A stretch of DNA of 64,000 nt from Ectocarpus siliculosus (lineage: Eukaryota > Sar > Phaeophyceae > Ectocarpales > Ectocarpaceae), in contig FN648505.1 in NCBI GenBank assembly GCA_000310025.1, positions 75,549 through 139,548 on the forward strand. The letters are read 5' to 3'. The translations under genes and the position numbers were made by a program. The notes below the pieces were generated by a model. It worked only from the letters and a program-made list of their open reading frames with translations, made no database searches and was not told where the DNA came from. Positions within the stretch are counted from its first letter, which is position 1. Every line of letters begins with the position of its first letter. This document shows, in pieces, positions 8,786 to 28,269 of this stretch.

Positions 8786-9094
8786 TGTAATGGTTTTTGA
8801 CCCCTTCCTTCAGAATCAATCACCTTTGAGCTGTGTGGAACTCTCTTGTCCGACCACAGTAGCAGGTTGTTGTTGCTTTCCGTTGTTCTCTTTCTCTTGA
8901 TTAACGCTTTCCAAGCCAACTCACAATATCCCACGCACACACGATCATAGATCGCCTGTACGCACACACTGAACAGAAGGGCACATGTCTCGGCATAAAG
9001 CCCTGATCTAGCATGACGTCACGTCTTAGCATCCGACGGCGCCAAATAACCATGATCAACCACGATCACATGTCTACCTCCAAATACCATAACA
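8786..9094 (-). repeat. 3' LTR of the Gypsy element
   Basis: 309 bp starting TGTAATGG and ending CCATAACA on the plus strand, so TG...CA termini on either strand. It appears identical to 23238-23546. Read on the minus strand it is the downstream LTR. Confidence 0.93.
9014..9021. promoter_or_regulatory. CRE-type palindrome TGACGTCA in the LTR
   Basis: Perfect 8 bp TGACGTCA, the classic bZIP (CREB/ATF) dyad, followed by a second CGTCA half-like site. The same site lies at 23466-23473 in the other LTR. In the transcribed direction it lies about 75 bp from the LTR 5' edge, a plausible enhancer position. Use as a promoter element is inference. Confidence 0.4.
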
Positions 9095-9984
9095 ATAGCC
9101 CACCCTGAGTGGACGTAGATGCAGATACAGAAGCAAACCTCGGAGGGACTCTAGTCAATCAAGAGGATTGCGGGATGGATCGAAGATACGACAACTCAAA
9201 ACCCTCACCCGCACCTCTCCGTTAACCAAACCAAAGAAGCGGAACCAAGAAAGAAGAAAACACAGAAGCCGGGGCGGCAAAGTCGGTGGATAAAATCGGT
9301 AAAAGGCACATGGGCGCGAAAAATAACCAAAACATCCGAACCGAAAAGACCATAACACGAAGTAACGAAATCGTGAAGAGAAAATCACAAACGATCTCGT
9401 ACGGATGAACCGATCGAATACGCAATCAAGTAAGCCAGAACCTTACGGGAAGGGGGGCTACGATGCGATCGAGTGCTGAAATGTAAACATAAAGAATAAG
9501 AAACGAAAACCGAGCCTGCAAAGGATCAAACGACATGGAAAACCGTTAGGGGTCGACCAAAATCGAGAAAAGCAGGAAAAGAGGGGGTTTCCGGGGAACG
9601 TAAACAACGGCCAAAGAAAAGGACAGGAACCAACGCCAAAAACAACGTTCGCATGTCACGATACAACGTGCTTGCGATCGGGGTGGGGCGAGGAAAACAA
9701 TCCTACGTGTACGTCAAGGCCAATTGTATGAAGAAAAATGCTAAAGAAAGTACCAAGATGGAACACGTTGGCCGTGGCATGCAATAGAAGCACTGACGGA
9801 ACGTTGGACCACAAAATATGCAAAGCAAACCATAGGGTGGGGAGTTAAATGATGCACCAAATTTGGGTGTCACCGCAACTAATGACGAACCTAGGTCGCA
9901 TTGAAAAATAGGTAAAGGGGAGCGAAAACTTTCGACAACCGACCGAGAAGTGACAAACGGGGCGCGAAAGTACGCAACACAAAA
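9095..9984 (-). other. Gypsy 3' untranslated region, distal part
   Basis: Between the hairpin array and the 3' LTR there is no supported gene. The bases next to the LTR, read on the coding strand, are G-rich (AGGGTGGG a few bases before the LTR) and are a weak polypurine-tract candidate for plus-strand priming. Confidence 0.4.
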
Positions 9985-10450
9985 GCAAGAGCCAGTCTCA
10001 AAGAGATTGAGAGGGCGAGCGGAAAGCATAAAGGAGCAATAGCCAGTCTCGAAATATTCGAGAGGGCGAGCTAGAAACATGCAGAAGCAATAGCCAGTCT
10101 CGAAATATTCGAGAGGGCGAGCTAGAAACATGCAGAAGCAATAGCCAGTCTCAAAAATCGATCGAGAGGGCGAGCTAGAAACATACAGAAGCAATAGCCA
10201 GTCTCGAAAATAGATCGAGAGGGCGAGCTAGAAACATACAGAAGCAATAGCCAGTCTCGAAAATAGATCGAGAGGGCGAGCTAGAAACATACAGAAGCAA
10301 TAGCCAGTCTCGAAAATAGATCGAGAGGGCGAGCTAGAAACATACAGAAGCAATAGCCAGTCTCGAAAATAGATCGAGAGGGCGAGCTAGAAACATACAG
10401 AAGCAATAGCCAGTCTCGAAAATAGATCGAGAGGGCGAGCTGGAAACATA
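9985..10450. repeat. 53 bp minisatellite with a stem-loop in each unit (about 9 copies)
   Basis: GCCAGTCTC recurs about every 53 bp (near 9991, 10041, 10093, 10144, 10197, 10250, 10303, 10356, 10409). Most units contain TCTCGA and TCGAGA around a short A/T-rich loop, giving a 6 bp stem. Some copies change the loop side (CTCGAAATATTCGAG), keeping the arms complementary. The array sits in the element's 3' untranslated region, between the last coding stop (10546) and the LTR, and is followed by a CA/TA-rich stretch at 10450-10530. Confidence 0.85.
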
Positions 10451-10545
10451 CAGACAAACATACATAAACACAAACATGTAACACACAAACATATACACAT
10501 ACATATACATACACATAAAACAAGGAAAACAATGCCACAGTGCTA

Positions 10546-11739
10546 TCAGGCATCTATAGCCGTACCACGCGACTCGTCTACATTGCGTAAGATACCTCGC
10601 ATGAAGGGACTACTTCGGTGCAGCTGAAGGCACCAAGAACCACAAACAGCTCCCAAAGCTGTCGTGTAGCGCGAAGGGGAGAGGGTGATCTTGACAGGTC
10701 CAGGGTCATCCAGGAAGCGAACGACGAAGACGTTTGTAGTCGGAGTATGTCCGGAGATTTTCCCTAGCCACCATAGAGCGTCTTGAGCCTTGTACCAGAA
10801 GTGTGCGCCTACAGGCAGCACGGTGTTGCGAAAACGGCGGGCCCAAACATCGCGGGGAACATATTCGTACCCGGGCGACGAGGACCGCTCGCCTTTGATG
10901 CGAGACAGTTCACGTTCCGCTGCGCCAATGCGCATGCGACGATACAGACGGTTAGTCTGCCGGTGTTGGTCGGGTGTACCAGCCCAATACAGAAGAATCT
11001 GTTTTCGGGAGTGTTGGAGGTCCATTTCTCGTTCCCACGAGGGCCGCAGAAGACCTTTCCAGTGGGTCTCGTACATGACTGCGATAACGCCGCCACGTCC
11101 TCGAACCGACTGGTGTCCCGTGATTTTCTCAACCTCGAGCCTGCGGACAGGCGCCGAAACATCGTCCGCGGTAACATGGTACGGCGGAGACTTCGTCGTG
11201 TAGTTGTTGAGAACATACTGCGTGAGGCCTGCAGGCAAGAACCGAGGCATGTCGTCACTATCGTGTGGGTTCGCACACGGTTTGCAACGAGCGACAGAAA
11301 CTCGGCGCTTGGCATCCACTCCGGGCATATCGGAGGGAAGATCCAAATACAGGAGCTTGTCAGCCACCGGGCTGCCATCGGGAGCCTTGTTGCAAGGACC
11401 GACTGCTAGGATTTTAAAAGGACCTGTCCAATTCAAGGACAGCTTCTTCTTGAGTACCTGGGAGTCAGCGTCTGCGCGGGCCTTGGAAGTGAGTTTGGCA
11501 CCTTGGCGGATGGTAGCCAAATAGTTGTAGACCCACACCCAACCACCGGTAGCGTAAACGGGTAGTTTATGTAAGGCATCAGACAGTTTCGAGTTCCGTT
11601 TTTCCATACGGGAAACTGTGAGTGCGTGTTGTTCACGCACTAGCTCGTAGGAGCGCCGTTGCCGATCGGCGGCAAGGTTGCAATACTCGAGCTGATCGCG
11701 GGCAAGCGACTGGTGACCACGTAGCGTAAATGTTGTCAA
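10546..11739 (-). CDS. Integrase C-terminal part with chromodomain-like and SH3/Tudor-like modules
   Basis: Frame of 397 codons that continues the integrase after a one-base frame change near 11738-11742 (a run of five A on the plus strand). Residues 1-50 complete the region following the integrase core. Residues ~96-155 look like the GPY/F module (WTGPFKIL at 104-111). Residues ~200-245 resemble a chromodomain (the 'YETHWKG' then 'PSWERE' pattern corresponds to the usual YLVKWKG...TWEP). Residues ~310-375 form a further module (WYKA..ALWWLGKI, then VRFLDDPGPVKITL) resembling SH3/Tudor folds in outline only. Chromodomains on integrases can direct insertion toward marked chromatin; the last module's role is unknown. 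Confidence 0.7.
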   Translation of the reverse strand: MTTFTLRGHQSLARDQLEYCNLAADRQRRSYELVREQHALTVSRMEKRNSKLSDALHKLPVYATGGWVWVYNYLATIRQGAKLTSKARADADSQVLKKKLSLNWTGPFKILAVGPCNKAPDGSPVADKLLYLDLPSDMPGVDAKRRVSVARCKPCANPHDSDDMPRFLPAGLTQYVLNNYTTKSPPYHVTADDVSAPVRRLEVEKITGHQSVRGRGGVIAVMYETHWKGLLRPSWEREMDLQHSRKQILLYWAGTPDQHRQTNRLYRRMRIGAAERELSRIKGERSSSPGYEYVPRDVWARRFRNTVLPVGAHFWYKAQDALWWLGKISGHTPTTNVFVVRFLDDPGPVKITLSPSRYTTALGAVCGSWCLQLHRSSPFMRGILRNVDESRGTAIDA

Positions 11740-12967
11740 AAACGGTCAGTGGAAACCTGGGAAGGCGCGCCATATGCACCTCATTGGGCGCCAATCCTGT
11801 TGCAGCGCTAACGGAGTTGTTGTACGCGAATTCAACATGAGGGAGATGAATGTCCCAATCATCTTGTCGTTCGTTCACAACCATCGCCAGCATCTGGGCC
11901 ATGGTGTGGTTCACGCGCTCAACTCCTCCGTTGCCGCTAGGGTGGTACGCGCTCGTCGTAATTTTTCGGACGCGTAGCAATTTTAGGATGGCAACCGACA
12001 GTTTGGAGCAAAACTGCAATCCATTGTCAGAAAGAATGCTGAGGGGGCATCCCCAAACAGGCATGTATTTATTGACAAGGACGTCAGCTGTACCTTCAGC
12101 TGTGAACTCGGCGTCAGTCACTGCGTACATATTGGCTCTCCGACTGAAACGGTCAGTGAATAGCAAAATATACGAGAAACCTCGCGGAGTTGTGGGAAGC
12201 GGACCAAAATAGTCGACGCTAATCGCGACCCCTGGTGCCGAAGGCAGAGGGATCGTGAGAATCGGCCAGCGAATAGTCTGGCGCGCAGTTTTGCGGGCCT
12301 GACATTTCAAACATCGCCGAATCCACCAACGAGTACTGATACTCATCCCAATCCACCAGTAAAACCTCTCAAGCAAGCTGAGCGTGCGAGCGGTACCAAG
12401 GTGGCAGAGGGCGTTGGCATGACAAGCTTGCATGACCCAAGGTCGCATTAACATGGGCACGTAAATACGAGTGGGTTCGTCATTCAACAGACGTGCAGCT
12501 CGTCCTCCGGGACGGTCAGAAGAGACCGGGGGCTTGGTATTCTTTCGTACCAAGAGGCAAAGGCCATCGTCAGTGACGAGGCGTCCTTTATCTGCAAGCT
12601 CTCGAATATCCTCCAACGAGGGTCTATGCCTGGAGTGATATGACACTCTGGCAAAGAAATCGACAGGTAGACTCTGAGGGCGTTTGAGGAGAATGTAGCG
12701 GATGGTGGCTTCACACACCGGCTCTTTCTGCTGTTCCCGCGCCCAATCTGCACGCGTGTAGCGTTCGACGGACTCACGGAATTCTAACTCTGCAGGATTG
12801 AGGACCATGGAATCCACTGCGGGCGTTGCCTTACCAGCTGCAGCAGCCGGTTGTGACAAACCCAACAGAGGACCCGTAGGGGCGTCGGTAACCGTCTCCG
12901 GCGGCGCTATAGGCACCGTTGGGACAGGTTCGACAGCAGGCTCAGGCGTGGTGGCAGCTGGTGTCAC
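11633..12967 (-). CDS. Integrase zinc-finger and catalytic core
   Basis: Frame of 444 codons; the first codon is GTG, overlapping the TGA of the preceding frame, so a separate start is unlikely. Residues 1-55 are a Pro/Ala/Thr linker. The HHCC zinc finger is at H183, H189, C219, C222. The DDE core is at D252 (in VDYFGP), D314 (in SDNG) and E350, with the usual 35-residue D-E spacing. The enzyme joins element cDNA to host DNA. After about residue 410 the frame leaves the conserved sequence, and the true continuation lies in the next frame (10546-11739). That break falls in a homopolymer inside the protein, so it is more likely a mutation or sequencing error than recoding. Confidence 0.88.
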   Translation of the reverse strand: MTPAATTPEPAVEPVPTVPIAPPETVTDAPTGPLLGLSQPAAAAGKATPAVDSMVLNPAELEFRESVERYTRADWAREQQKEPVCEATIRYILLKRPQSLPVDFFARVSYHSRHRPSLEDIRELADKGRLVTDDGLCLLVRKNTKPPVSSDRPGGRAARLLNDEPTRIYVPMLMRPWVMQACHANALCHLGTARTLSLLERFYWWIGMSISTRWWIRRCLKCQARKTARQTIRWPILTIPLPSAPGVAISVDYFGPLPTTPRGFSYILLFTDRFSRRANMYAVTDAEFTAEGTADVLVNKYMPVWGCPLSILSDNGLQFCSKLSVAILKLLRVRKITTSAYHPSGNGGVERVNHTMAQMLAMVVNERQDDWDIHLPHVEFAYNNSVSAATGLAPNEVHMARLPRFPLTVFDNIYATWSPVACPRSARVLQPCRRSATALLRASA

Positions 12968-13578
12968 TCGTGTTTGACGACGAGAAGCGCCTGCACGCGG
13001 AACGTGTGGGGGATCGACAAATCAGGACCGAAACCGTAGTTTACATCGGGTTGAGGCTGACCCGCAGCAGCCGCGGTTCGGCGACGCGTACGAGTAGAGA
13101 TCAGTTCCGACGGATCAATACGATGCGGTTGCAACCGAGAGGTCGAAGGCGGCGGCAATGAGTCGGCGGCATCCAAACGATCAGAGTGGGAGCCGGCGTC
13201 GACAGTTGCGGTCGCATGAGACACGACAGGGGGCAACCGAGAGTTATCGTCGGCGGTCTGTGTGTCGTGGACAGGGAGCGCAAATGCAGCTGTATCCGTG
13301 TGGGGTCGCGCAGACGGTCCGTAAACCGTGGCGGTGTCCCTATACAATGGTCTCATCGGAGACACAACAGGAGAAGCTGAAGACCGGAGTGCCGGCACAG
13401 CGCCCTGTATTTTCTGGGTTGCAGCGGAAGTAACCTCAGGCACAGCAAATACGGAGTGGTCGGTGCAAGACAATGCACGATCGTCCGCAAGGTGTCGCAA
13501 AGGTCCTCGCGCATTGACGTACGGAAAAACACGAGCGACGAATTCTCCTGCAGGAGCATCAAGGTCGTCAATCCTCAT
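12964..13578 (-). CDS. Linker ORF between RNase H and integrase
   Basis: 204 codons starting at ATG 13578, which overlaps the stop of the pol frame as ATGA. It ends in TGA overlapping the GTG that opens the integrase frame. Pro/Ser/Asp-rich with no recognised domain. Coding-like sequence appears to extend upstream of the ATG in this frame, so it may be an internal part of one polyprotein reached by a -1 frame change. Alternatives are termination-reinitiation or a simple indel. Confidence 0.5.
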   Translation of the reverse strand: MRIDDLDAPAGEFVARVFPYVNARGPLRHLADDRALSCTDHSVFAVPEVTSAATQKIQGAVPALRSSASPVVSPMRPLYRDTATVYGPSARPHTDTAAFALPVHDTQTADDNSRLPPVVSHATATVDAGSHSDRLDAADSLPPPSTSRLQPHRIDPSELISTRTRRRTAAAAGQPQPDVNYGFGPDLSIPHTFRVQALLVVKHE

Positions 13579-16500
13579 TCGAGGCCCGTGTTTGCGAAAA
13601 TCCGCAAAATCATCGGAAGTAAGGGGTAGCCCACCAAAGCGGTGTTCTCGCTCGGGGGCGCCAGCCCACCCAAACCAGCGCCAGGCGTGATTTGCCCGGG
13701 TGATGCGTGACCTGTCGCTCGGATCAGATACACACCAACGTCTTCTGGGGACGTCAAACGACTGTTACCGTTGATGTCGGCGGCAGTAGGCTCAATCGGC
13801 AGACGAGACAGCATGTCAGCGTTTCCGTTGGAGGCACCTCGTCGGTACTCCAACGTGTAGCTGTATGCTTCAAGGAACTCAATCCAGCGTTGGACGCGTG
13901 GGTTGTGCTCGCTGATTTTTGACAAACTTTCCAGCGCCTTATTGTCGGAATAGATGCGGAAGTGTGTGCTACGAAGGTATTCGCGGAGACGCTTGATCGC
14001 CCATACAACGGCTCCTGCTTCGAGATCGAGAGCGGTCCAGTTGCGTTCAGCGTCGAGCGTGGCTCTGCTGATGAAAACGATCGGCCGTACCGAGCCGTCT
14101 TTCTGCTCTTGCTCCAGCGCGGCGCCGAGACCGTCGGAGCTGGCGTCACAGCAAAGACGTAAAGGGCGTGTACCGTCCGCAATAGCGTCCCAATCAGGAA
14201 ACACTAAAATGGGCGGTTTCGCGAGCTCAGCCAGTAGGCTGCGAACAGTTGTTTCCATGTCGCTCGTGAAAGCGAAGGGAACACCTTTTTTGAGCAAGTG
14301 CGTAATGGACTTCACACGCTTGGCCATGTCTCTGAGGAAACGTCGGTAGTAGCTCAGACCACCCATGAGTGACCTGAGTTGCTTGACGGTCGTAGGCATG
14401 GGCATACCTGCCAGGGCGGCTACTTTACGGGCGTTGGGGAGGACACCTTTCGAAGATATGGTGTGCCCCAAGAAGTCAGCCTTGGTGGTACCGATGGTGG
14501 CTTTCGAGGGAGAAAGTTTGAGGTCGTACTTTCTCAACCGTTCGAAGAGCGTGCGCATATTACGGACATGCTGCAGTGGGCCTTCGTCAAAAACAACGAC
14601 GTCATCGAGGTATGCCTCGACTCCATCGAGTCCTTTGATTACTTCGTTAATCACTTTTACAAAGTGGCCTGCGGATTGGCTAGAACCCATCGGCATGCGG
14701 AGCCATTCGAACAAACGAGTGGGGGTCGCAAAAGCCGTAAGGGGGATAGTGTCCTTGTGGACAGTGATCTGGTGGAAAGAACCCGTGAAATCGAATAACG
14801 AGAAAATCGAACCTCTGTTGAGTTTCGTTAGAATCTCGTCGACTCGGGGGATGGGAAGTTGACCAAAGCTGCTGATATGGTTCAACTTTCGGTAGTTAAC
14901 CGTGATGCGTATTCCACCAGACTTCTTTGGTATAACCACGATGGGGCTGGAATAAGGAGAGGTCGAGTGCTGAATTAGGCCAGCAGCTAGATACTGGTCC
15001 AAAATGGCATCGACTTGCTTTGCAACCAAAGGATTCATACGGTACGGTTTGGACGTCACAGGGGGACAATCCGGAGGTACTTTGATCTCAAACGGCATCA
15101 GGGAACAGGACCCTAAATCCGTCGAGGATGTGGAAAACACGTCTTGGAAATCATGTAAAAGATCACCAAGTTCTGTGATGACCTCTGGTGACCAACCAGG
15201 ACCGTGTAAATCAAACTTAACCAACTTCAGGTGAGGCGGCAAGCGATTCCACAATGACTCAAAGCTAACTCTCTGATCAGCGCTCAACCGCTCCATCACA
15301 TGCTGTGGTGGCGGCGAGGGCGAAGTGTGAGCGGGGGCAGGGGCCGCAGGGGGTGATTTCCCTGGGTCCGGCACAGGAAGATCGGTGGATCGTAGGTTGT
15401 GCACGAAGGGATCGTGGCAACGCACCTGCGGATCGGCGGTCCTGTCCGCGTTATCCTCGGTAGAACCCAAAATAGGTCCAGGCACCGAACATGAAGTGTC
15501 AGCTTCGTCACTAAACTGTTGTTCTAAATGCTCTACCGGGACGCGCATCAGCGGGGCGGCAGCAGTACCGAGCAAGTCTCCTGGCTCAAGTTCTGCAGCG
15601 CCCGCGAGCGGCACAAACTGACGCCCGTCGGAGACAAAGATCTCTTCGTTCGACGAAACATCAGGCAACATGTCGACAAGGTATTGACCGGTCAGAGCCG
15701 GTGTACCGTTGGAACGCACCAAGTTGACTTCAATCATTTGGTGGTCGTCTGACAATGAAGTACCCGTTGGCCCTGCATAACGGAGCTGGAATTGGTCCGC
15801 CGGGGCTGTGAAATCGGGCACATACGCGACCGCAGCAGAATCATCCTGGTGGGCAAGCGTATATTCACCAAAAACGCGATTGTCCAGTGGCCTCGGAGGC
15901 AACATACGGTACGTGCGAGTGTTAAATCGCATGAAACTATCGCGTCCCAATAGGATGGGAAACTGCATGGTGTTTGCAGGGACGATGTGCGCCCAAACGG
16001 CAAGAGAAGCCGAAGGCGTATCACCGTGGAAAAATTGCACACTCAGACGGACTGTATCAGACGTCTGAAGAGACTCGGATTTACCAAAACCTCCCCAAGA
16101 ACGTGAGTTACCGTGCGATATGCAAGCCTCTGAGATGGCTCCCATGGCTTTGAGGGTACCGACAGCGTTGCTGTTGATGAACGTGGCCGGTGATCCTGAA
16201 TCGAGCAGAGCGGCGCAACCATATTGTGATTTGGCTGGCCCAGCGTGGATTTTGACTCGAGTCGTAAATGAAGCGTCGTCAACTGTAACAACACCACCTA
16301 CGAGGCAAGGACCATGCTCAGCGAGCAACGGTACACGATCTTCCTCATGATACTCAGCGGACGTAACCGCGAGAACTTCAGCGCTGTGATCCCTTGGAAC
16401 ATGCGCTGATTTTATGCGGTAACCTGACGACGGGGCGGCCTCCTCGGCGGCAGCCGTCGAAATACGCTCTTGCGTTGCAGGGTTAACCTCATGTATTGTA

Positions 16501-16955
16501 TTCCGGAGCTGAGCGTCGGACGAAACTGTGTGGTGGAAGTGTCGGCGTCGGCGCGTGCTCTCGGAGTAGGTCTCGAACAACCTGCAGGCTTTTGCCGAGC
16601 AGATTGGAGCCCCGCCATAAAGAGGGTTGGATTGCAGCAGGATCATCCGCGCGATGTCCAATGCCCCATATGGCATCGAATGGGCTAGCTTCGACGAGCA
16701 TTTTGTCGCCGGTGCCCAAAAGATGTTGTCGCATAGCGGGATTTTGCGAAAATTTGTAGTAGGAGGCGACACGCACCACGTTTTCACGCTCGCGCTCCCA
16801 AACAGCTTCATCAAACCCTTTAACTTGGCGTCCGTAACGCTTATGTTTAATCGGGTCAGAAACACGCATAATCCGCCGCAACGTATCTTGGTCGCCAAAG
16901 AGACGAGCCTTGGCAGCCGCGAAGAATTGTTCTCCACAAGAGTATTCCACACCAT
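13575..16955 (-). CDS. pol: Pol: aspartic protease, reverse transcriptase, RNase H
   Basis: Frame of 1126 codons. The first ~155 overlap the NADAR ORF and are probably not translated in this frame. Protease: DSG at residues 252-254 in LLDSGSPATF. RT: residues ~640-800, including IPKKSGGIR, the LFDFTGSFHQI motif A region and YLDD at 782-785. RNase H: starts at CCDASSDGLG (D937) and includes the YSDNKALE region, ending near DMLSRLP. The enzyme copies element RNA into cDNA inside Gag particles. Nothing in the catalytic motifs looks damaged. It lies in a +1 frame relative to the NADAR ORF and runs into the linker ORF through an ATGA overlap. Confidence 0.92.
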   Translation of the reverse strand: MVWNTLVENNSSRLPRLVSLATKIRCGGLCVFLTRLNISVTDAKLKGLMKLFGSASVKTWCVSPPTTNFRKIPLCDNIFWAPATKCSSKLAHSMPYGALDIARMILLQSNPLYGGAPICSAKACRLFETYSESTRRRRHFHHTVSSDAQLRNTIHEVNPATQERISTAAAEEAAPSSGYRIKSAHVPRDHSAEVLAVTSAEYHEEDRVPLLAEHGPCLVGGVVTVDDASFTTRVKIHAGPAKSQYGCAALLDSGSPATFINSNAVGTLKAMGAISEACISHGNSRSWGGFGKSESLQTSDTVRLSVQFFHGDTPSASLAVWAHIVPANTMQFPILLGRDSFMRFNTRTYRMLPPRPLDNRVFGEYTLAHQDDSAAVAYVPDFTAPADQFQLRYAGPTGTSLSDDHQMIEVNLVRSNGTPALTGQYLVDMLPDVSSNEEIFVSDGRQFVPLAGAAELEPGDLLGTAAAPLMRVPVEHLEQQFSDEADTSCSVPGPILGSTEDNADRTADPQVRCHDPFVHNLRSTDLPVPDPGKSPPAAPAPAHTSPSPPPQHVMERLSADQRVSFESLWNRLPPHLKLVKFDLHGPGWSPEVITELGDLLHDFQDVFSTSSTDLGSCSLMPFEIKVPPDCPPVTSKPYRMNPLVAKQVDAILDQYLAAGLIQHSTSPYSSPIVVIPKKSGGIRITVNYRKLNHISSFGQLPIPRVDEILTKLNRGSIFSLFDFTGSFHQITVHKDTIPLTAFATPTRLFEWLRMPMGSSQSAGHFVKVINEVIKGLDGVEAYLDDVVVFDEGPLQHVRNMRTLFERLRKYDLKLSPSKATIGTTKADFLGHTISSKGVLPNARKVAALAGMPMPTTVKQLRSLMGGLSYYRRFLRDMAKRVKSITHLLKKGVPFAFTSDMETTVRSLLAELAKPPILVFPDWDAIADGTRPLRLCCDASSDGLGAALEQEQKDGSVRPIVFISRATLDAERNWTALDLEAGAVVWAIKRLREYLRSTHFRIYSDNKALESLSKISEHNPRVQRWIEFLEAYSYTLEYRRGASNGNADMLSRLPIEPTAADINGNSRLTSPEDVGVYLIRATGHASPGQITPGAGLGGLAPPSENTALVGYPLLPMILRIFANTGLE

Positions 16956-17523
16956 CTACAGTAAAGACGGAGGGCGTCCATTGCGAGAAAAACGACGGGG
17001 CTTGCCAGAACAACACCATGTCAGGTGTGCAGTACTCCTTGCTCGGATCAAACGCTGGTGGTGAACACCTGGCGTCGGTCGGAGGAGGAGGGTAGATACG
17101 AATACCAGCTATAGCGGAGGAGGGGGATGTCTGTTTCCCCAAGTCCTCTACTCTTCCAACAGCGCAACCCGGTGGGGGTGTATAGTCTGTAGTGCTTTCG
17201 CTAGAATCCATCACGTTGGAGACATGACGGACCTCCCTTGACGAGGGTCGCGAGTTTTTCGCTGTTTGTTCAGCGAGGGGCGCAATCGGAGCGTCCTCCG
17301 AATACGGTGTTGTCAGCACCTCCGTGGTCGCGGTTGGGGACCGCTCAGTTTTGGTACTCCGCGAATCGCAAACCACGGGAAATCGACGCGTATTTCTTTC
17401 AACGCAATCGGTCATACTCGCTTCACCGTGCGGCGAGTGACTTTTATTACCGTCTCGAGTTTCCATCGGCTGTATCGCCGCAGGCTGTCGATGACCCGTA
17501 CGTAGTGGACATGTCCAAAGCAT
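16489..17523 (-). CDS. NADAR (YbiA-like, DUF1768) domain ORF inside the Gypsy element
   Basis: 344 codons from ATG 17523. Residues 1-165 are Ser/Thr/Pro-rich. Residues ~166-322 (16558-17028) carry the hallmarks of the NADAR/YbiA family in order: FFSQWTPSVFTVDGVEY, GEQFFAAAKARLFGD, a DP...K..GRQVKGFD..VW block, KFSQNP, LL.TGD..LVEASP.D.IWGIG, and WRGSNLLGKSLQ.VR. Domain length matches the free-standing family, and the conserved Glu and Trp positions are kept. Family knowledge: NADAR proteins cleave N-glycosidic bonds in riboflavin-pathway intermediates and remove ADP-ribose from guanine bases, including as antitoxins to DarT-type enzymes. The ORF overlaps the extension ORF upstream by 77 nt and pol downstream, each in a +1 frame. 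It is therefore probably a Gag-Pol polyprotein module, though separate translation from its ATG is possible. Confidence 0.88.
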   Translation of the reverse strand: MLWTCPLRTGHRQPAAIQPMETRDGNKSHSPHGEASMTDCVERNTRRFPVVCDSRSTKTERSPTATTEVLTTPYSEDAPIAPLAEQTAKNSRPSSREVRHVSNVMDSSESTTDYTPPPGCAVGRVEDLGKQTSPSSAIAGIRIYPPPPTDARCSPPAFDPSKEYCTPDMVLFWQAPSFFSQWTPSVFTVDGVEYSCGEQFFAAAKARLFGDQDTLRRIMRVSDPIKHKRYGRQVKGFDEAVWERERENVVRVASYYKFSQNPAMRQHLLGTGDKMLVEASPFDAIWGIGHRADDPAAIQPSLWRGSNLLGKSLQVVRDLLREHAPTPTLPPHSFVRRSAPEYNT

Positions 17524-18145
17524 CGCTCGAGGTGGCTAAACCCGGCGACACTTCATGTATTGTCGACAACGTAGGTGTCTTAACGGTCTTCCACGAGGAC
17601 GTCTGAGCGGACCTCTTGGGCATGCTCGACAATCCCGACCTTCCGTACCCGCACCTCAAACCGACCCTTGCATTCGTGTAGCCAACACGTAATGGTTCAG
17701 GCTGGTTTGCGGGCGGCAACGTGGTGTAATCGTGGGTTGTGCAAGCTGCTCGAGCTGTGTTAAAACTCGGGGAGCCGCCTTCAAGACAGGTCGCTCCTTG
17801 AGTTCCTAACCTTGGGGTATATTTACTGATGACAGCGCTGAAGCTGCCGCGTGTGCAAGCTGCTCGAGCTGTGTTAAAACTCGGGGAGCCGCCTTCAAGA
17901 CAGGTCGCTCCTTGAGTTCCTAACCTTGGGGTATATGCATTGACGACAGCGCTGAAGCTGCCGTGATCGGGAGTGTGGGCTACACCATCTTCACCCGATG
18001 AGGTCGAAGCACTACCGCTTGTAGCGGAAGTGTCGGTTGTAGGAACAGGAGTGGTACACTCGACCGTACCTACTATACGCGCATCCTGCGACACATATCT
18101 AGCTGCTCCCTGTTTTGCCATCGGCGGGTCGGGGAGTAACGACAA
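17447..18145 (-). CDS. Gag extension behind an in-frame UGA, with a 38-residue tandem repeat
   Basis: This frame is the same as Gag's, separated from it only by the UGA at 18161-18163 followed by CAG. The first in-frame ATG is at 18121, so readthrough is at least as plausible as new initiation. It has no known domain, is rich in Ser, Thr and Gly, and contains two near-identical 38-residue repeats (containing YTPRLGTQGATCLEGGSPSF). It ends at 17447 after overlapping the NADAR ORF. It may be a hinge between Gag and the NADAR module. Confidence 0.5.
   Translation of the reverse strand: MSLLPDPPMAKQGAARYVSQDARIVGTVECTTPVPTTDTSATSGSASTSSGEDGVAHTPDHGSFSAVVNAYTPRLGTQGATCLEGGSPSFNTARAACTRGSFSAVISKYTPRLGTQGATCLEGGSPSFNTARAACTTHDYTTLPPANQPEPLRVGYTNARVGLRCGYGRSGLSSMPKRSAQTSSWKTVKTPTLSTIHEVSPGLATSSDALDMSTTYGSSTACGDTADGNSRR
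17739..17966. repeat. 114 bp in-frame tandem duplication
   Basis: Two copies of a 114 bp unit (17739-17852 and 17853-17966) differ at few positions. The length is a multiple of three, so the duplication adds 38 residues without changing frame. Confidence 0.85.
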
Positions 18146-18160
18146 GCCGCCGTTGGGCTG

Positions 18161-21100
18161 TCAGTTACCAGCATTATACGTTCCAGGAGTGCGGGCATTT
18201 GGGTTGGAGTCTACGGGGAGTCGGCTGTTGATTCTTAACGCCGGCTGCGCGTGTGTGGCAGACGCTGGAGCAGTACCTGCATGAGGCTGGTATGCTACCA
18301 ATGTGTGCTGTTGGGCTGGTGCACTAGATTGCAGCAGGCCCTGTGGTGGCGGTTGATGCCACGTCTGAGTGTATTGTTGCGGGTTTGGAGCGTTACCAGC
18401 GTATTGAACTCTATGAGCTGGTCTGTGGGAACGGCGCCGGTTTTGTTGGCCATTCGAGTTGCGTGAGCCGTGTGTTGTGGCAGTCGCAGGCTTAGTCCTC
18501 CAGGACCGCAAGCGCTCTTGCCACAGGCGAAACATGTCATCACCATCAGTCAGTGCACCTAAATCTGGGTTCAGGACACCACTAGCATTGGTGAAAGGCT
18601 GTTCACAGTGTTTGATGGAGTGGCCAGACCCGTGACAGTTTAAACAACGGCCAGCATTCGCGCTGAACGCTTGTGCTCGGTCAGCTCTAGTCCTAAGGAG
18701 TGGTGTCCAAAGGGGGGGGAGTTGACGTTTGAAACCACTGGAAACAACAGCATGCACTGTCTCCCAATGATCATCGGTGGCCAGCGGCCAAGCATCGTAG
18801 CTAACACAAAACACATCATGAATTGGCTCTGCCTTAACACGCATGACCGATTTGCCACGTGCTCCCTGGGAGCTCCAAGGCTGCTGCGATTGCGTCGTCG
18901 AACGTCCTTGAGAACGACTACCGCCTTGCGAATGCAACGATAATCCACTAAGCGAGAGCGCAGCATATTGCTCGCCATTCTCTGCCTTAACCTTAGAGGT
19001 CGTGAACTCATTCAGCACTCGCCACATCTCATCCAGACTACTGTAGGGTTCTGCCGCGGTACGCTTTGCACCCGGAAAACAGTCAGACATCATCACAGAA
19101 AACTGGTCGTTGATCTTATTCCTTGTGATCCCGACAATCCAAGTCTCGTTAGGGCTAAAAAGACTGGAATAGTGCGTGATGTTGTTCACGGCAGTACGAT
19201 ACTGTCGCAAAAATTCTCCAAACGTAGTTCCGTTGGGAACACCGAACGCATTCAGCGTTGTCAAGGCGTCTCCACGGTCTTCATGCTTGAAGTGGGACGC
19301 GATCAGACGAAGAAGGTGCTTGAAAGCTTCTCCTCCGTTCATACCGTCGTCCATACGCTGCTTCACCTGCACAAACATACCATTGATAGAGCTGATAAGG
19401 TCACCAGTGGTTTGCTTGTTTGGGGATACGGCGCTAATGATGGCTTTCTTCAGCGGGTTTTCCCACCCGCGAACCCACGTATCGGATTTGTCAAAATCGA
19501 TGAAAGGGTCAGCCTGTTGCAAGACATCTAAGGCTGCAGCCTTGATAGAATCTAACAACTGCGGCACTGCCTGTTTCAGGTTTGCCGGCCAAGGGATCGA
19601 TGGTTGTATACGAATATCCCTAAACTTCGTCTTGATGTACTTCGCACTGATCTCTCTGATTCGTGCAGCTTCTGCAAGCGCGTCAGCCTTGTCTATCTCT
19701 ACTTGGCGAGCACGAGCAGTCGTTGACGACAACGGTTGGGCGTTATGGCCTACGAATGCACTGTTGCGTGACATCAATGAGTGGTCGCTGGCTGCGACAT
19801 CACCCAACAACGGTACTTGCCTGTCATCTCGCGGGGCTGTCAGGGGTTGGTCCAGACGCTCTTCCAGTGGAAGATCGGTGGTCAGGTGCGGTTGGTTTGC
19901 GTCAAAGATCTCCTCCGGGGAGTGATCCTCGTAGGCTGGTGCCTCCGAGCCGTCGCTGCTTCGGTGCCCGCGGCGGTGTCCGCGGCGGCGTGGGCTACAG
20001 CTCCTGCTATGACTCCGGCTACGACGGCGGCCACGACTCGTGTCCTCCTTGCTGACGCTTTTAGTCGCCGAAGGCTTGCGTTCCACAGCGACCTCCTCTC
20101 GGCGGCCGTTGGACCCAGAGCGCTTCTTGCCACGTTTGCCTCGATTCGATCTTTTGGAGCTGCTGGCGGCCACGGAAGCCGACGCGTCACTTTCGCTAGC
20201 TGCGGAAGAGCGCGACCCTCGCGAACCGCGTTGACGGTGACCGTTATGGTTACCACGTCCACGGTTGCTGGAAGAACCTCGACCACTACCACGACCACGG
20301 CTGCCACGGCTGTGGGAGCTGCTGCTGTCGGTAGCGCGCTCCTTCTTCACCTTGCGGTGAGTGACGACACGGAAATCGCCCGTCTGCTTGGCGAATGCTG
20401 CAGAGGCGCCAAACGTCGTTGGCAGAATCGAAGGGGGAAGGTACCAGTTGACCTCCGCCGGGCGGTAGCCACCTGTAAGGTTAGCGTAACCTCCTCTGAG
20501 CCCGTGCAGCAGACGCGTTACCGATTCGACTAACGGGGCGTCTACCGTAGGGGCATGAGCGACGTGATGCATGAATTCACGGAGAGTGACCGTAGGTCTC
20601 TCCGAGGTTTCTAACATCGTCGTCAGCACTGTAGCCGCCTTGGTGACTTGTATCCTGCATGCTTCCGTGAAGGCCTGCTGGTGTACGTGCGCGAAGTTAG
20701 ACACCGGAATGTCAAGGAACAATTCATCCCCCGTTCGGAGGCTGAGATCCGGCGGTCCTTGCGCCATTTGGCTGTATGACGGTTGGGCCGGGGGCGGTAC
20801 CACATAACCACCTCTAGCGATGGACAGTGGTGGTTTCAGCAACAGCCCTTGCTGCTGGTATGGCAGACCGTACCCCGCAGGGCCGGCGTGCTGGGGCTCG
20901 GAACCAAGCTTATTCGAGCCGGTGAGCGCCATGTGCTGCGAACCAAATCCTGAAGGACCGGTGAGCGGGTGCTCCGCACCAAACCCCTGTGGGTCGGTGG
21001 GAGAGTTTCGCGTCGAACCAAATCCCGTAGGATTGGTGAGCGAGGGGCTCTGCGAACCATACCCAGAAGGGTAAGTGCGAGCCTGCTTCCAACCATGCTC

Positions 21101-23116
21101 TTGCGAGCCGGTGAGCTGGTGGGGCGAAGCCTGAGCGGCTCCTCCCATACCGCTAAATTGTCGGGCGACGCTGGCCCGTGCGGCAGCAGCGGCGGTGGCC
21201 TGGTCGACGCACTCGGCCTGTCGCGCGCGTGTCTGCTCGCGCTGCTGTGTGAGCTGTCGGATTTGCTCATCCAACGTAGCACTTGCCTTGTTGGCAGCGC
21301 TCAAGGCCGCTTCAGCCTCTCTCGTTTGTGCAGCGACTTCCTCTTCCGCCAACGCTCGCGCTTTGGCATCCGCGTCACGCTTGGCCTCTTCGACATTGCG
21401 GAACATGATGTGCGTGTTGTCGAGCATGGACGCTTGCTCCTCGGCGTCCATTTTAGCCCACGCGGAAGGCTTCATCACACCCCTGAGGACTGCCGGCATC
21501 GGCTGCTCCTCTCGAGCAGTTGTGCCTCCCATATCGACGTCAGGCGTACCATCGGCAGCATCAGCTGCCTCAGGACCGCTCGCCACCAGCGGCTCGGCCA
21601 TATTGGTTACTCTCGATGCGGAACCTTTGGAGAGAGTACGAGGGAGGGTTGGGCCAGCAGGCGATATTGCGTTACCATGGGGAACAACTGGGTGTAGTCG
21701 TTTTGCGGTAATTTCCTTGGCAGGCACGGGAAGCCTTGGAGCGGCCGTTGACCGTGCTAGATCGAGAGCGTCAGATGGTGGTTTACCAGCTAGACGCCGT
21801 GACCGTCTAACAACAGGCATACTCGTAGTTTGCACGCGTGTGGGTGCAAATGGGAGAGGGGGGGCTGCTGTAGGGGTACGATCTTCGTCTACGGCGGGTA
21901 AAGATACACTAGATACAGGTTCTACGTCTCTGCCTGCAATTGCATCGGTACTAACAGGGGCAGAAGCGTGGTTCCCAGTCGGAACATATTCGCTGTCTGT
22001 GTATTCACGTGATTGTGGACGCGGGTACACAAGTGCCGCGTCGCGTGCACCATGCGCGGCACCAGGCGGGGCAGGGTTGCTGGAAGCAAATGCGCCGCTG
22101 GTGGCTTGCGGTGTCTCACCATCAGCGGATCTCAGGGTATCCGACTGCTGTGAGGTCGCAGTGGTTCTCAAACTCTGACAGCGAGAACCGTCTCCATCCA
22201 TCTCCGAAACATTTGTGGTGTTCTCGGAATGCGATAAAGAAGGGGTGTCGGCATGCAGCCGAGAGAACGTTTTGATAGTTTCTCGGGGGCTTGCGACAGC
22301 GAGACCAGGGGCAGAATCGCTCGAGGCGACCGCTCCGCTGGTGCGTTCTGACGTGCGTTCGACGGAGCCACTAACTCCTATCGAGTGCGTGTGTGAGGCA
22401 TCGATCAAACTTGTAGAGTGAGAGCCAACACTATCCACATTCGGCACATATCCGCGCTCGGAATGGGATGCAGCCGGGCTGGCGTCGGAATAATTCAAAC
22501 TCTGAGGTTCAAACATGCCGACAGCGACAGCTGGGCTACCAGGGGCAGGAGTACTAGACTCGACCGCGCCACTGGGGGCGTCCGACACGCGCACAATGGA
22601 GCTGTGAGCTTCATTCGTGTGCGTGCGTGAGGCTTCAATCAAACTCGGAGAGCGAGAGCCTTCACCATCCAATTTCGGCACATTGCTGTGTTCGGAATTG
22701 GATGCGGGGTGTGAGTGTGCGCGTTGAACCACCGAGCGCATCTGCATTTCTGCAGGTGTCTCAAGGCGGTGTGCCACATCTGATGACCAGCGGCGAGCTG
22801 AATCACGAGAGGGCACAGACCTGGAGCGCGGCGCGCGACCAAGGCCTTCAGTGTGCGATCGTGCAACATCATCTTCCTGAGAGTCTACGTCTGCTAACGT
22901 GCGTTCGAACTGCGATCGCGATCGTGGCTGCTGCTGCTGCTGCTGAAAAGTCCGACCGCGAACATGCAAGAAGGCATTCGGCGAATCCTTATCAACACGG
23001 AGCGAGCTACGCGAAGCATGCGAATCATCATCATCAGGAGTGTTGTGCGGCGACAAAGGGAACGGGGTCGAAGCAGCAGAGTCGCTGCTACCTCGCGGCT
23101 CATCAGGAGCCGACAT
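18161..23116 (-). CDS. gag: Very large Gag polyprotein
   Basis: 1651 codons from ATG 23116, 121 bp inside the 5' LTR; far longer than usual Ty3/Gypsy Gag (roughly 300-500). Residues ~139-315 hold three imperfect 78-residue Ser/His-rich repeats. ~563-640 is an Ala/Glu/Arg coiled-coil-like segment. ~660-740 has Gly-Phe/Tyr-Gly repeats. ~930-1060 is rich in RG, then SR dipeptides (RRRSRSHSRSCSPRRR), typical of RNA binding. ~1140-1395 is helical and capsid-like (WENPLKKAI, FKHLLRLIASHF, FGEFLRQYRTAV). A CCHC zinc knuckle (C-X2-C-X4-H-X4-C) is at 1491-1504, followed by a Gln/Pro-rich tail. It should package element RNA into particles. The function of the N-terminal ~900 residues is unknown. Confidence 0.85.
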   Translation of the reverse strand: MSAPDEPRGSSDSAASTPFPLSPHNTPDDDDSHASRSSLRVDKDSPNAFLHVRGRTFQQQQQQPRSRSQFERTLADVDSQEDDVARSHTEGLGRAPRSRSVPSRDSARRWSSDVAHRLETPAEMQMRSVVQRAHSHPASNSEHSNVPKLDGEGSRSPSLIEASRTHTNEAHSSIVRVSDAPSGAVESSTPAPGSPAVAVGMFEPQSLNYSDASPAASHSERGYVPNVDSVGSHSTSLIDASHTHSIGVSGSVERTSERTSGAVASSDSAPGLAVASPRETIKTFSRLHADTPSLSHSENTTNVSEMDGDGSRCQSLRTTATSQQSDTLRSADGETPQATSGAFASSNPAPPGAAHGARDAALVYPRPQSREYTDSEYVPTGNHASAPVSTDAIAGRDVEPVSSVSLPAVDEDRTPTAAPPLPFAPTRVQTTSMPVVRRSRRLAGKPPSDALDLARSTAAPRLPVPAKEITAKRLHPVVPHGNAISPAGPTLPRTLSKGSASRVTNMAEPLVASGPEAADAADGTPDVDMGGTTAREEQPMPAVLRGVMKPSAWAKMDAEEQASMLDNTHIMFRNVEEAKRDADAKARALAEEEVAAQTREAEAALSAANKASATLDEQIRQLTQQREQTRARQAECVDQATAAAAARASVARQFSGMGGAAQASPHQLTGSQEHGWKQARTYPSGYGSQSPSLTNPTGFGSTRNSPTDPQGFGAEHPLTGPSGFGSQHMALTGSNKLGSEPQHAGPAGYGLPYQQQGLLLKPPLSIARGGYVVPPPAQPSYSQMAQGPPDLSLRTGDELFLDIPVSNFAHVHQQAFTEACRIQVTKAATVLTTMLETSERPTVTLREFMHHVAHAPTVDAPLVESVTRLLHGLRGGYANLTGGYRPAEVNWYLPPSILPTTFGASAAFAKQTGDFRVVTHRKVKKERATDSSSSHSRGSRGRGSGRGSSSNRGRGNHNGHRQRGSRGSRSSAASESDASASVAASSSKRSNRGKRGKKRSGSNGRREEVAVERKPSATKSVSKEDTSRGRRRSRSHSRSCSPRRRGHRRGHRSSDGSEAPAYEDHSPEEIFDANQPHLTTDLPLEERLDQPLTAPRDDRQVPLLGDVAASDHSLMSRNSAFVGHNAQPLSSTTARARQVEIDKADALAEAARIREISAKYIKTKFRDIRIQPSIPWPANLKQAVPQLLDSIKAAALDVLQQADPFIDFDKSDTWVRGWENPLKKAIISAVSPNKQTTGDLISSINGMFVQVKQRMDDGMNGGEAFKHLLRLIASHFKHEDRGDALTTLNAFGVPNGTTFGEFLRQYRTAVNNITHYSSLFSPNETWIVGITRNKINDQFSVMMSDCFPGAKRTAAEPYSSLDEMWRVLNEFTTSKVKAENGEQYAALSLSGLSLHSQGGSRSQGRSTTQSQQPWSSQGARGKSVMRVKAEPIHDVFCVSYDAWPLATDDHWETVHAVVSSGFKRQLPPLWTPLLRTRADRAQAFSANAGRCLNCHGSGHSIKHCEQPFTNASGVLNPDLGALTDGDDMFRLWQERLRSWRTKPATATTHGSRNSNGQQNRRRSHRPAHRVQYAGNAPNPQQYTQTWHQPPPQGLLQSSAPAQQHTLVAYQPHAGTAPASATHAQPALRINSRLPVDSNPNARTPGTYNAGN

Positions 23117-23224
23117 GCTGAAGCAGGGCCAAGGCTGTTGCCCTGCCGCTATTCAGCAGACGACTGCAAAAAAGCGAAAAAATCAAAATCAATTGAACGC
23201 AAGAATCAAGCAACACGACCAAAA

Positions 23225-23236
23225 CCAACAACGCCA
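23225..23236 (-). other. Primer-binding-site candidate
   Basis: One base inside the 5' LTR, the coding strand reads TGGCGTTGTTGG. TGG at this position fits pairing with a tRNA 3' CCA end (tRNA 3' end would be ...CAACGCCA). The tRNA identity cannot be told from this window. Confidence 0.5.
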
Positions 23237-23237
23237 G

Positions 23238-23546
23238 TGTAATGGTTTTTGACCCCTTCCTTCAGAATCAATCACCTTTGAGCTGTGTGGAACTCTCTTG
23301 TCCGACCACAGTAGCAGGTTGTTGTTGCTTTCCGTTGTTCTCTTTCTCTTGATTAACGCTTTCCAAGCCAACTCACAATATCCCACGCACACACGATCAT
23401 AGATCGCCTGTACGCACACACTGAACAGAAGGGCACATGTCTCGGCATAAAGCCCTGATCTAGCATGACGTCACGTCTTAGCATCCGACGGCGCCAAATA
23501 ACCATGATCAACCACGATCACATGTCTACCTCCAAATACCATAACA
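23238..23546 (-). repeat. 5' LTR of the Gypsy element
   Basis: 309 bp, appears identical to 8786-9094, with TG/CA ends and a copy of the TGACGTCA dyad at 23466-23473. It is followed at 23547 by the second GTAC of the target duplication. It should carry the promoter for the minus-strand transcript. Confidence 0.93.
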
Positions 23547-24154: not shown

Positions 24155-24354
24155 TTTATTGTTTTCCTTTCGAATTGCCTTCATCATTATTTTTCCACGG
24201 CCGAAGGAAAGAGAGAGGTGCCAACTGCTTCTCTCTCTTTCCTCCGAGCGGCAACCACAAATTCTCTTTTTCTCGGTGCAGGGGCTAATCTTACTGCCCG
24301 CAGTAGTCTCAGATGACCAAGTCCCCAAAATGGTACCCTACCATTTTCTTCGCC
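24155..24354 (-). repeat. Terminal repeat B2
   Basis: 200 bp matching 24712-24911 with an offset of 557 and one visible mismatch. It forms the 3' end of the element on the coding strand. Confidence 0.9.
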
Positions 24355-24417
24355 CGTTAGCAACTGCAACGGTCCTTGCCTCCCCCCACCTTCGAAAGGA
24401 AAGGGGTGGGTGGGCGG

Positions 24418-24714
24418 GAAAGACCAAACTTGTTTGCCGCTCCTCCAGCTGGCAAACCACTCGAAGCCCTCACAGTGTCCACCTCGCTCCTTGTCTCTGC
24501 GTTGCTCTCTCTAGACTAGTCCTCGTAAGACTTTGTGTGAACACCTAGCTTCGATAGAGTGCCGAGGTGGTGGCTACTCCCCTGCTCCCGCTTGGGAGGG
24601 GACCCCGTATTTCCGTAGCAATTTATGCATACCCTAACAACGACGTTACAAATTCGACTACTTTCAATAAACCTTGATTTGTTTCCGTCTGCTCCTACAA
24701 CAAATCTCCCCTTT
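24418..24714 (-). repeat. Internal repeat A2
   Basis: 297 bp copy of A1 (32733-33029, offset 8315), no difference seen. It overlaps B1 by TTT (24712-24714), which re-creates the junction expected in a circular intermediate. Confidence 0.9.
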
Positions 24715-24911
24715 ATTGTTTTCCTTTCGAATTGCCTTCATCATTATTTTTCCACGGCCGAAGGAAAGAGAGAGGTGCCAACTGCTTCTCTCTCTTTCCT
24801 CCGAGCGGCAACCACAAATTCTCTTTTTCTCGGTGCAGGGGCTCATCTTACTGCCCGCAGTAGTCTCAGATGACCAAGTCCCCAAAATGGTACCCTACCA
24901 TTTTCTTCGCC
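24712..24911 (-). repeat. Internal repeat B1
   Basis: 200 bp copy of B2, directly downstream of the recombinase stop on the coding strand (the ORF ends at 24933). Confidence 0.9.
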
Positions 24912-24932
24912 AACCTCGAGGTCATCCTGCTA

Positions 24933-25961
24933 CTACTCGTTCGGTGATATTAGCCTCCTCTTATGCCTACCCCACACCGTGCCTTCTCCTGGCTGCCGCT
25001 CGACTCCCTTATCCTTGTCCCCAAGTATACGTGACACCATTCGCGAGTCTTCCGTGTTGTCTACTGTATACGGTTTGTACGCATCAGACTTCCACCTTCC
25101 TGCTCTCTGGATTACTCTTTCCGAAACATTGCCTCCAGCCGCCAAGGTGGAAGCCCCTCCAATTCGGAGCGAATGTAACGCAAAGTCTTTTGGATTTCGC
25201 CCTGACTTCTCGACAATCTCTCTCAACGCCCGAAGGGCTTGGTCATACTTCAGAACCTTCACTGCACGGCCGCTACGGTATGATGATAGCGGCGCATCAT
25301 CGGGTAACGTTGCATGACATGACAACAGCTCCAACATCAGCGCAACTGCTCCGCCGTCTGCTCTGTACCCCGATTGTGGGCCGTTAATCTCATCCCGCGT
25401 ACGAGCCCTGACCGACCCCGTCTGGTCCTGGTCACCCTTGTGTCCTCTAAAGTGCACCTCTATCTTATCCGCTTCTCGCCATCGGACATACTCCAACTGT
25501 TCCTCCCCAGAGAAAAACGCAACATCCCGTCTCGTGAGACAATGTACTGGATGCCCGACCCCGGAACTGTCAGCAAACATTTCGTCCGACCGAGTGATCA
25601 AGAAATAGCTTAAGCTCAAACATAACCACATCACGCGTCCTCCTATTCCCCAAGTGGGAATCATGCTCTCACCCCCTCGCAACATCCTCCAAGTGATCGG
25701 CAATCGAACTCGTTGACGTACCCCGGCGACCGCGTGGGACCTAGAAATGCCCCGAAGTGCACACTTCAGCAACGGCGACGACGTGACTATCTCTACATGT
25801 GCTTCCACCCTGTGGTGGTACTGCACCGCTGCCAACTTCCCCGATATAGTCCCGGCCTGGTTTCCTTCCGACTCGAAACACCACGCCGCAAAGTCAATCA
25901 AGGCCCACACCATCTCTGTGTGCGGTGACTCTGCGCTCAAGAACTTTTCGTAACCCATCAT
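24933..25961 (-). CDS. Tyrosine recombinase (integrase) of the Ngaro-like element
   Basis: 342 codons, uninterrupted. Catalytic set in order: R124 (in TRSDE), K175 (in RGHKGD), H263 and R266 (in HSLRIGG), W290 (in GRWKSD) and Y298. This is the complete R-K-HxxR-W-Y series of DIRS/Ngaro recombinases, with the usual ~32-residue spacing from the second Arg to the Tyr. The enzyme would insert a circular cDNA by strand exchange. Its ATG at 25961 overlaps the TGA of the RT-RNase H frame (ATGA), suggesting coupled reinitiation. No inactivating change is seen. Confidence 0.9.
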   Translation of the reverse strand: MMGYEKFLSAESPHTEMVWALIDFAAWCFESEGNQAGTISGKLAAVQYHHRVEAHVEIVTSSPLLKCALRGISRSHAVAGVRQRVRLPITWRMLRGGESMIPTWGIGGRVMWLCLSLSYFLITRSDEMFADSSGVGHPVHCLTRRDVAFFSGEEQLEYVRWREADKIEVHFRGHKGDQDQTGSVRARTRDEINGPQSGYRADGGAVALMLELLSCHATLPDDAPLSSYRSGRAVKVLKYDQALRALREIVEKSGRNPKDFALHSLRIGGASTLAAGGNVSERVIQRAGRWKSDAYKPYTVDNTEDSRMVSRILGDKDKGVERQPGEGTVWGRHKRRLISPNE

Positions 25962-28194: not shown

Positions 28195-28269
28195 CACAGC
28201 ACCCTCGGCGGAAGGCGCGCGCGGGTAGCTCGTCGAGGTTGGCCCTGTCGCATGACAGAGCCCGTGTCC

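Follow-up and report, generated by a model that had tools for sequence, protein, structure and literature searches.

The window analysed here is a 64,000-nucleotide stretch of the Ectocarpus siliculosus genome (GenBank assembly GCA_000310025.1, contig FN648505.1, positions 75,549 to 139,548 of the forward strand), and feature coordinates are positions within it unless a copy elsewhere is named. On its minus strand lies a Ty3/Gypsy retrotransposon (8786-23546) that carries, ahead of its reverse transcriptase, a NADAR domain of the YbiA type (16561-17010) in an open reading frame (ORF) of 344 amino acids (16489-17523). The first-pass annotation had recognised this ORF from six motif blocks, all of which were found in it, and its assignment was borne out by a profile search, in which Pfam NADAR (PF08719) matched residues 172-321 with an E value of 2.3e-47 and 161.7 bits (cut-off 35.1), spanning profile positions 2-163 of 163.

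Structure of the element

The element is bounded by two long terminal repeats (LTRs) of 309 bp with TG...CA ends, a 5' LTR at 23238-23546 and a 3' LTR at 8786-9094, both on the minus strand, and the identity that had been apparent between them is complete (309/309 bases). The flanks, GTACT and GTACC, agree at four of five bases, which is only suggestive of a target-site duplication. Between the LTRs, all on the minus strand, the first large ORF is Gag (18161-23116, 1651 amino acids), in which a CCHC zinc knuckle can be seen by eye near the end and whose stop, a TGA followed by C (18161-18163), is a candidate readthrough site with the next 238 codons open in the same frame. An N-terminal extension of Pol (17447-18145) follows, 5' of NADAR, and is continuous with it in another genomic copy, L020. 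The Pol ORF (13575-16955) contains a protease motif, DSGSPATF, identified by eye, along with the Pfam-matched reverse transcriptase (RT) core (RVT_1, 14457-14933), which served as the query for the genome RT search, and RNase H (RT_RNaseH, 13863-14171). The integrase ORF (11633-12967) holds a zinc-binding domain (H2C2, 12287-12460) and a core domain (rve, 11939-12238), both matched by Pfam, and beyond it is a weak chromodomain-like match (10984-11136; 17.5 bits, E 0.0039, Pfam cut-off 25.1). Neither the Gag ORF nor the protease motif was matched by Pfam. The LTRs, Gag, and the order protease, RT, RNase H, integrase are those of Ty3/Gypsy elements (Metaviridae), with the protease and the Gag knuckle recognised by eye only, and the earlier placement of NADAR between Gag and protease is strongly supported with the same reservation.

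In the window copy Pol is split over several frames, a feature absent from the first-pass annotation, while copy L020 has one uninterrupted Pol of 2175 codons running from NADAR through RT and RNase H to integrase. Identical LTRs combined with broken frames point either to a defective copy that inserted recently or to indel errors in the assembly. A tandem array with a period of 53 bp (10056-10532) also lies inside the element, between integrase and the 3' LTR.

An intact active site in the NADAR domain

The best solved relative of the window NADAR was chain 8bau_A (E 3.7e-18), with 2b3w_A also matched by sequence. The 8bau structure is that of the P. nicotianae NADAR with ADP-ribose (excerpted text of PMC11543638), and the residue numbering of that paper was carried over by hand through the 8bau_A alignment, with a chain offset of two. 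Nine ADP-ribose-binding or catalytic positions were mapped to the 344-amino-acid ORF in this way (E43=E198, K50=K205, K75=K228, R79=R232, W89=W242, R93=R246, E125=E278, D130=D283, W133=W286), and all nine are identical in the window copy. As described in the same text, K75 makes no direct contact with ADP-ribose in 8bau, the corresponding E. coli residue is important for antitoxin action, and the E125 position is Glu in the YbiA type, Asp in BC4488 and His in phage. The window domain is assigned to the YbiA subfamily because it has Glu at this position.

Across 109 stop-free genomic copies, each of the nine residues was kept in nearly every sequence (E198 in 106, K205 in 101, K228 in 105, R232 in 107, W242 in 106, R246 in 105, E278 in 107, D283 in 107 and W286 in 109), and all nine were present together in 92. 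We consider it likely that in intact copies NADAR is a functional ADP-ribose N-glycosidase. A domain in a ribonucleoprotein need not have a catalytic role, and the authors of the SNA-3 study allow that mutations may act through folding (excerpted text of PMC9303266), so that NADAR could instead be a structural or nucleic-acid- or protein-binding module of Gag-Pol. Retention of the catalytic and ADP-ribose-contacting residues in 101-109 of the 109 copies argues against such a module, which we consider improbable. Still less probable is a housekeeping role of the YbiA kind benefiting the host. The best NCBIfam model for the ORF is indeed TIGR02464, riboflavin biosynthesis intermediates N-glycosidase (149.4 bits, cut-off 73.7), but such a role would offer no evident reason for carriage in Pol or for recruitment by several retroelement orders.

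NADAR copies are linked to reverse transcriptase throughout the genome

In the 189-Mb genome (G000), the best 150 of 230 NADAR candidates were scored, so that at least 150 matches exist, and the RT search with the window RT likewise scored the best 150 of 422 candidates. Among these listed matches, 122 of the 150 NADARs are followed within 6 kb by an RT on the same strand, in 115 cases at a distance of 1500-1749 bp, and no upstream or opposite-strand RT was found within 6 kb of a NADAR. Conversely, a NADAR from the list precedes 122 of the 150 RTs and is missing ahead of the other 28; at least 4 of these 28 have an upstream NADAR fragment outside the listed NADAR matches. The two domains share a single open frame at C14 (2175 amino acids), C237 (2537), C476 (2015) and C23 (2580).

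NADAR sequences from 144 of the 150 matches were analysed, of which 109 were stop-free and at least 140 amino acids long, 95 of these with an RT. The 109 form eight clusters at 20% divergence that track RT identity classes, with some classes common to several clusters (57-62% in clusters 6, 7 and 8; 63-69% in clusters 3, 4 and 5), and the other 35 are 79-100% identical to cluster members over the aligned part. No stand-alone host NADAR gene was found among the 144 copies, which come from the best 150 of 230 candidates. As a separate observation, the NADAR matches at G000:C3:3913787-3914242 and C489:435177-435536 were assigned to ORFs of 10887 and 6365 amino acids, far exceeding Pol.

Purifying selection and co-divergence with reverse transcriptase

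Nucleotide changes were counted pairwise by the Nei-Gojobori method. Within clusters, using pairs with dS above 0.02, median dN/dS for NADAR ranged from 0.16 to 0.52. Between clusters, with up to 6 copies each and cluster 5 (one decayed copy) set aside, the proportion of synonymous differences (pS) was 0.52-0.86, often beyond correction, against a proportion of nonsynonymous differences (pN) of 0.15-0.36, so that synonymous change is two- to fivefold amino-acid change between NADAR subfamilies. Choosing stop-free copies favours apparent constraint, but this choice alone does not explain a two- to fivefold synonymous excess at such depth.

Across the 23 copies in which both domains are present, protein distances for NADAR and RT are strongly correlated (Mantel r 0.973, p 0.0001), and in 15 pairs the pS values of the two domains are mostly close (0.69/0.65 and 0.81/0.81, for example), with a largest gap of 0.16 (0.50/0.66). 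Because the distances correlate and the synonymous values mostly agree, NADAR is taken to predate the split of the subfamilies, and it has travelled with RT since. The pairs L032-L095 and L021-L077, in which close RTs accompany more distant NADARs, raised the possibility that NADAR had been swapped between subfamilies; swapping was set aside and RT taken as the more constrained domain, since pS is similar in both (0.69/0.65; 0.50/0.66). Taken as a whole, the family would be an old Ty3/Gypsy lineage with recent insertions that has borne NADAR in Pol since before its subfamilies separated.

The finding of 28 RTs out of 150 without a NADAR upstream, among the matches listed, is what might be expected if NADAR were a passenger in the family. 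The fixed NADAR-RT spacing, dN/dS values well below 1, deep co-divergence with RT, and the fact that all 144 analysed NADARs belong to the same Gypsy clusters or match their members argue against a passenger or a chance insertion in the window copy, and we hold this explanation to be extremely improbable. A single-copy artefact in particular is ruled out by the presence of at least 150 copies, the linkage to RT, selection and co-divergence. The first-pass annotation had named the lack of a significant NADAR match, a single-copy chance insertion and a loss of catalytic residues in all related copies as the outcomes that would count against it, and none of the three was found.

A recurrent UGA-C at the Gag-Pol junction

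Gag and Pol lie in one frame with a TGA between them. When junctions were picked by eye in 20 ten-kb loci, a candidate was found in 17; in 15 of these it is the end of the Gag frame, and in every such case the stop is a TGA followed by C. The two other candidate stops lie elsewhere (a TAA in L009, and a TGA-C within other sequence in L023). Nine of the fifteen TGA-C junctions belong to near-identical cluster-2 copies, and the number of independent observations is therefore four. In eight copies (L011, L012, L014, L019, L020, L021, L025 and L026), belonging to clusters 2, 6 and 8 plus a cluster-1 relative (L019), the TGA-C is the last in-frame stop 5' of NADAR, and the residues flanking it vary among them; the NADAR of L019 itself contains a stop. 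UGA-C is a leaky stop context. The simplest reading of the recurrent junction suggests that the Gag stop is leaky and would be read through into Pol. A UGA separating gag and pol is known from Candida Tca2 (excerpted text of PMC2194720).

NADAR domains in other retroelements

Large proteins containing NADAR were retrieved with two queries, six with the L020 NADAR and nine with P0006 (including P0006 itself), giving 14 different proteins. P0001-P0004 are Gypsy polyproteins resembling that of the window. P0013 (2335 amino acids, on an ENA contig of 10,114 bp) is also a Gypsy polyprotein, with the order protease, RT, RNase H, NADAR, Tpt1/KptA, integrase, and P0014 (2178 amino acids, contig of 9,259 bp) is a Copia polyprotein with NADAR near the N-terminus, integrase, Tudor and RT. 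P0006 has NADAR and RT by Pfam; a C5-methyltransferase motif and an end resembling a tyrosine recombinase were recognised in it by eye only. In P0005, Pfam matched NADAR and a C5 methyltransferase but no RT. P0009-P0012 belong to a single family, again with no RT matched by Pfam; tyrosine-recombinase matches, none of which reaches the Pfam cut-off, occur in P0009, P0010 and P0011 but not in P0012. SET is present in P0010 and P0011, and P0011 (3927 amino acids) also has a deoxynucleoside kinase and NUDIX. From this content P0009-P0012 may lie outside retroelements altogether, and P0011 is possibly an element that supplies its own nucleotide enzymes. P0007 and P0008 are large proteins of Haliotis (abalone) in which NADAR-like domains are repeated many times in tandem; their precomputed Pfam list includes no RT.

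P0005 was also compared with a second, Ngaro-like element in the window. It matches the recombinase of that element at E 2.8e-23, whereas the match to the RT/RNase H-like part is weak (E 6e-4). This second element (24155-33029, minus strand) has exact repeats (24418-24714/32733-33029, and 24155-24286/24712-24843 with about 200 bp at near identity) in an arrangement like that of split direct repeats, and its ORFs resemble, by eye, RNase H/RT and a tyrosine recombinase (HSLRIGGAS...GRW), no Pfam match above cut-off being found in the four ORFs scanned. It is probably a Ngaro (DIRS) element. A tandem array with a period of about 122 bp (29899-31556) lies inside it, and another, with a period of 157 bp, lies at 46585-47826.

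Among the NADARs of P0005-P0014, equivalents of E43 and K50 are kept in 10/10, E125 in 9/10, K75 in 3/10 and R93 in 1/10. The protein without Glu at the E125 position is P0005, whose NADAR may be inactive. In a tree of NADAR domains, computed after L151 (pS 0.22 and pN 0.21 against its nearest cluster, differing at 4/9 active-site residues) and L130 (differing at 2/9) had been dropped, the algal Gypsy sequences fall together, P0013 sits beside Haliotis, and P0014 and the recombinase families fall elsewhere. P0005 appears among the algal Gypsy sequences, but its branch measures 3.54 changes per site, and the placement was treated as long-branch attraction. The approximately unbiased (AU) test was conducted on a tree without P0005, in which support for the algal group was only 84; with so short a domain and several long branches, it did not reject a single clade of all retroelement NADARs (p 0.319). 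Since a single origin is not rejected, the argument for independent capture rests on the differing element orders and NADAR positions rather than on the tree.

It is tempting to see NADAR as a module that eukaryotic retroelements in general use for counter-defence or repair and have acquired on several occasions: in brown-algal Gypsy elements (at the front of Pol), in the Gypsy element of P0013, in the Copia element of P0014, in the DIRS/Ngaro-like P0005 and, by eye, P0006, and perhaps in P0009-P0012, besides the published oyster Tx1 LINEs (long interspersed nuclear elements). We advance this generalisation tentatively and judge it somewhat doubtful. If it were true, many eukaryotes would ADP-ribosylate the nucleic acid of retroelements as a defence.

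The P0013 polyprotein, in which NADAR directly precedes the RNA 2'-phosphotransferase Tpt1/KptA, points to another function, in which NADAR would act in RNA repair or processing, on small ADP-ribose derivatives or on the ends of RNA intermediates rather than on bases attacked by the host. KptA, and possibly NADAR, have been linked to viral RNA repair (excerpted text of PMC9503650), and RNA processing is proposed for NADAR in the main text of PMC12477816. No scanned ORF from the window's family matched Tpt1, however, and the biochemically shown activity of NADAR includes removal of ADP-ribose from guanine (excerpted text of PMC11543638). On this evidence a repair or processing role is rather unlikely for the window's family.

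Proposed function of the Pol-borne NADAR

From the domain, its position, its active site, purifying selection, co-inheritance with RT and the recurrent UGA-C, all of them sequence-level support, we infer an enzymatic activity, a readthrough, packaging, a substrate and a host opponent, as follows. Readthrough of the Gag UGA-C would make NADAR only within Gag-Pol, at the level of Pol and not of Gag, and it would thus be packed into the particle alongside RT and integrase. In the particle, NADAR would clear guanine of the genomic RNA or the new cDNA of ADP-ribose or a similar N-ribosyl adduct, which would shield reverse transcription and integration against damage or against ADP-ribosylation by the host. 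Reversal of ADP-ribosylation on element nucleic acid, as the first-pass annotation had envisaged, fits the intact active site, and NADAR relatives strip ADP-ribose from guanine and serve as antitoxins (excerpted texts of PMC11543638 and PMC11125620). That its target is the RNA or cDNA of the element itself is, in our estimation, an even chance, and we place the explanation in its entirety, a packaged N-glycosidase clearing ADP-ribose from element RNA or cDNA by way of readthrough, at about the midpoint between doubt and acceptance.

Several observations weigh against a counter-defence enzyme of this kind. Most of the other retroelement NADARs lack the K75 and R93 equivalents, although stand-alone NADAR enzymes are likewise variable at R93 (25/40). 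According to the excerpted text of PMC11125620, NADARs from elsewhere have riboflavin intermediates among their substrates, and being active on ADP-ribosylated guanine was not in itself sufficient for antitoxin function. The host ADP-ribosyltransferase family PF01129 was unmatched in the genome, though the control genomes were also unmatched and the result is uninformative, and the PARP family PF00644 gave just four short matches in the genome; no host nucleic-acid ADP-ribosyltransferase was identified in these searches. Lastly, the window copy itself is frame-broken.

Retroelements seldom retain an extra enzyme for long. Here one has persisted across deep divergence without losing its active site, and its enzyme family recurs in differently built retroelements; this raises the testable question of whether eukaryotes ADP-ribosylate retroelement RNA or cDNA and whether elements reverse it. 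The excerpted text of PMC11125620 calls the roles of NADAR outside DarT operons and in eukaryotes unclear.

Comparison with known systems

The first-pass annotation knew of no described case, but a NADAR-bearing Ectocarpus Gypsy lineage has already been reported (main text of PMC12477816, Genome Biol 2025), in which elements such as Gypsy-12_Ec32 carry a YbiA-type NADAR at the Pol N-terminus. Compared by description only, that lineage shares with the window element its Gypsy type, the N-terminal position in Pol and a bacterial-looking NADAR of YbiA type; it has a putative chromodomain after integrase, where the window element has only the match below cut-off. This was the sole report of NADAR in a retroelement among the matches listed from the open-licence literature, subscription papers and preprints being outside its scope. 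The main text of PMC12477816, supplements aside, makes no mention of catalysis, an active site, a stop codon, readthrough or synonymous change, and uses "purifying" in one unrelated place only. As far as searches of the open-licence literature reach, the evidence from selection, co-divergence, the active site and UGA-C is new, as is the presence of NADAR in Copia, in a Tpt1/KptA Gypsy and in a DIRS/Ngaro-like methyltransferase polyprotein.

Within the genus, P0004, a polyprotein of Ectocarpus sp. CCAP 1310/34, is 92% identical over 145 amino acids to a copy in this genome. Short unnamed ENA proteins are up to 69% identical to the window NADAR, and some of them, which group with the algal Gypsy sequences, are probably pieces of elements of this kind. 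A NADAR of stand-alone length from the heterokont alga Chrysoparadoxa australica is 53% identical to the window domain. The closest named stand-alone relatives are from Nannocystis and Nannocystaceae (54-57% identity), an affinity that agrees with the bacterial one reported in the main text of PMC12477816. These myxobacterial YbiA proteins are stand-alone bacterial enzymes, whereas the window NADAR is embedded in a polyprotein, and a Chondromyces YbiA is an antitoxin to YarT (excerpted text of PMC11125620).

The DarT1-associated and stand-alone NADARs (P. nicotianae 8bau, E. coli C7; excerpted text of PMC11543638) belong to the same family and have the same ADP-ribose-binding and catalytic positions. 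Unlike them, the window NADAR sits in a retrotransposon polyprotein and is of the YbiA type, and no DarT-type ADP-ribosyltransferase was found when seven of the element's larger sense-strand ORFs were scanned. The polyproteins of nidoviruses and other RNA viruses (excerpted text of PMC9503650) resemble the window element in placing NADAR alongside a polymerase; unlike it, these viruses are not retroelements and use an RNA-dependent RNA polymerase.

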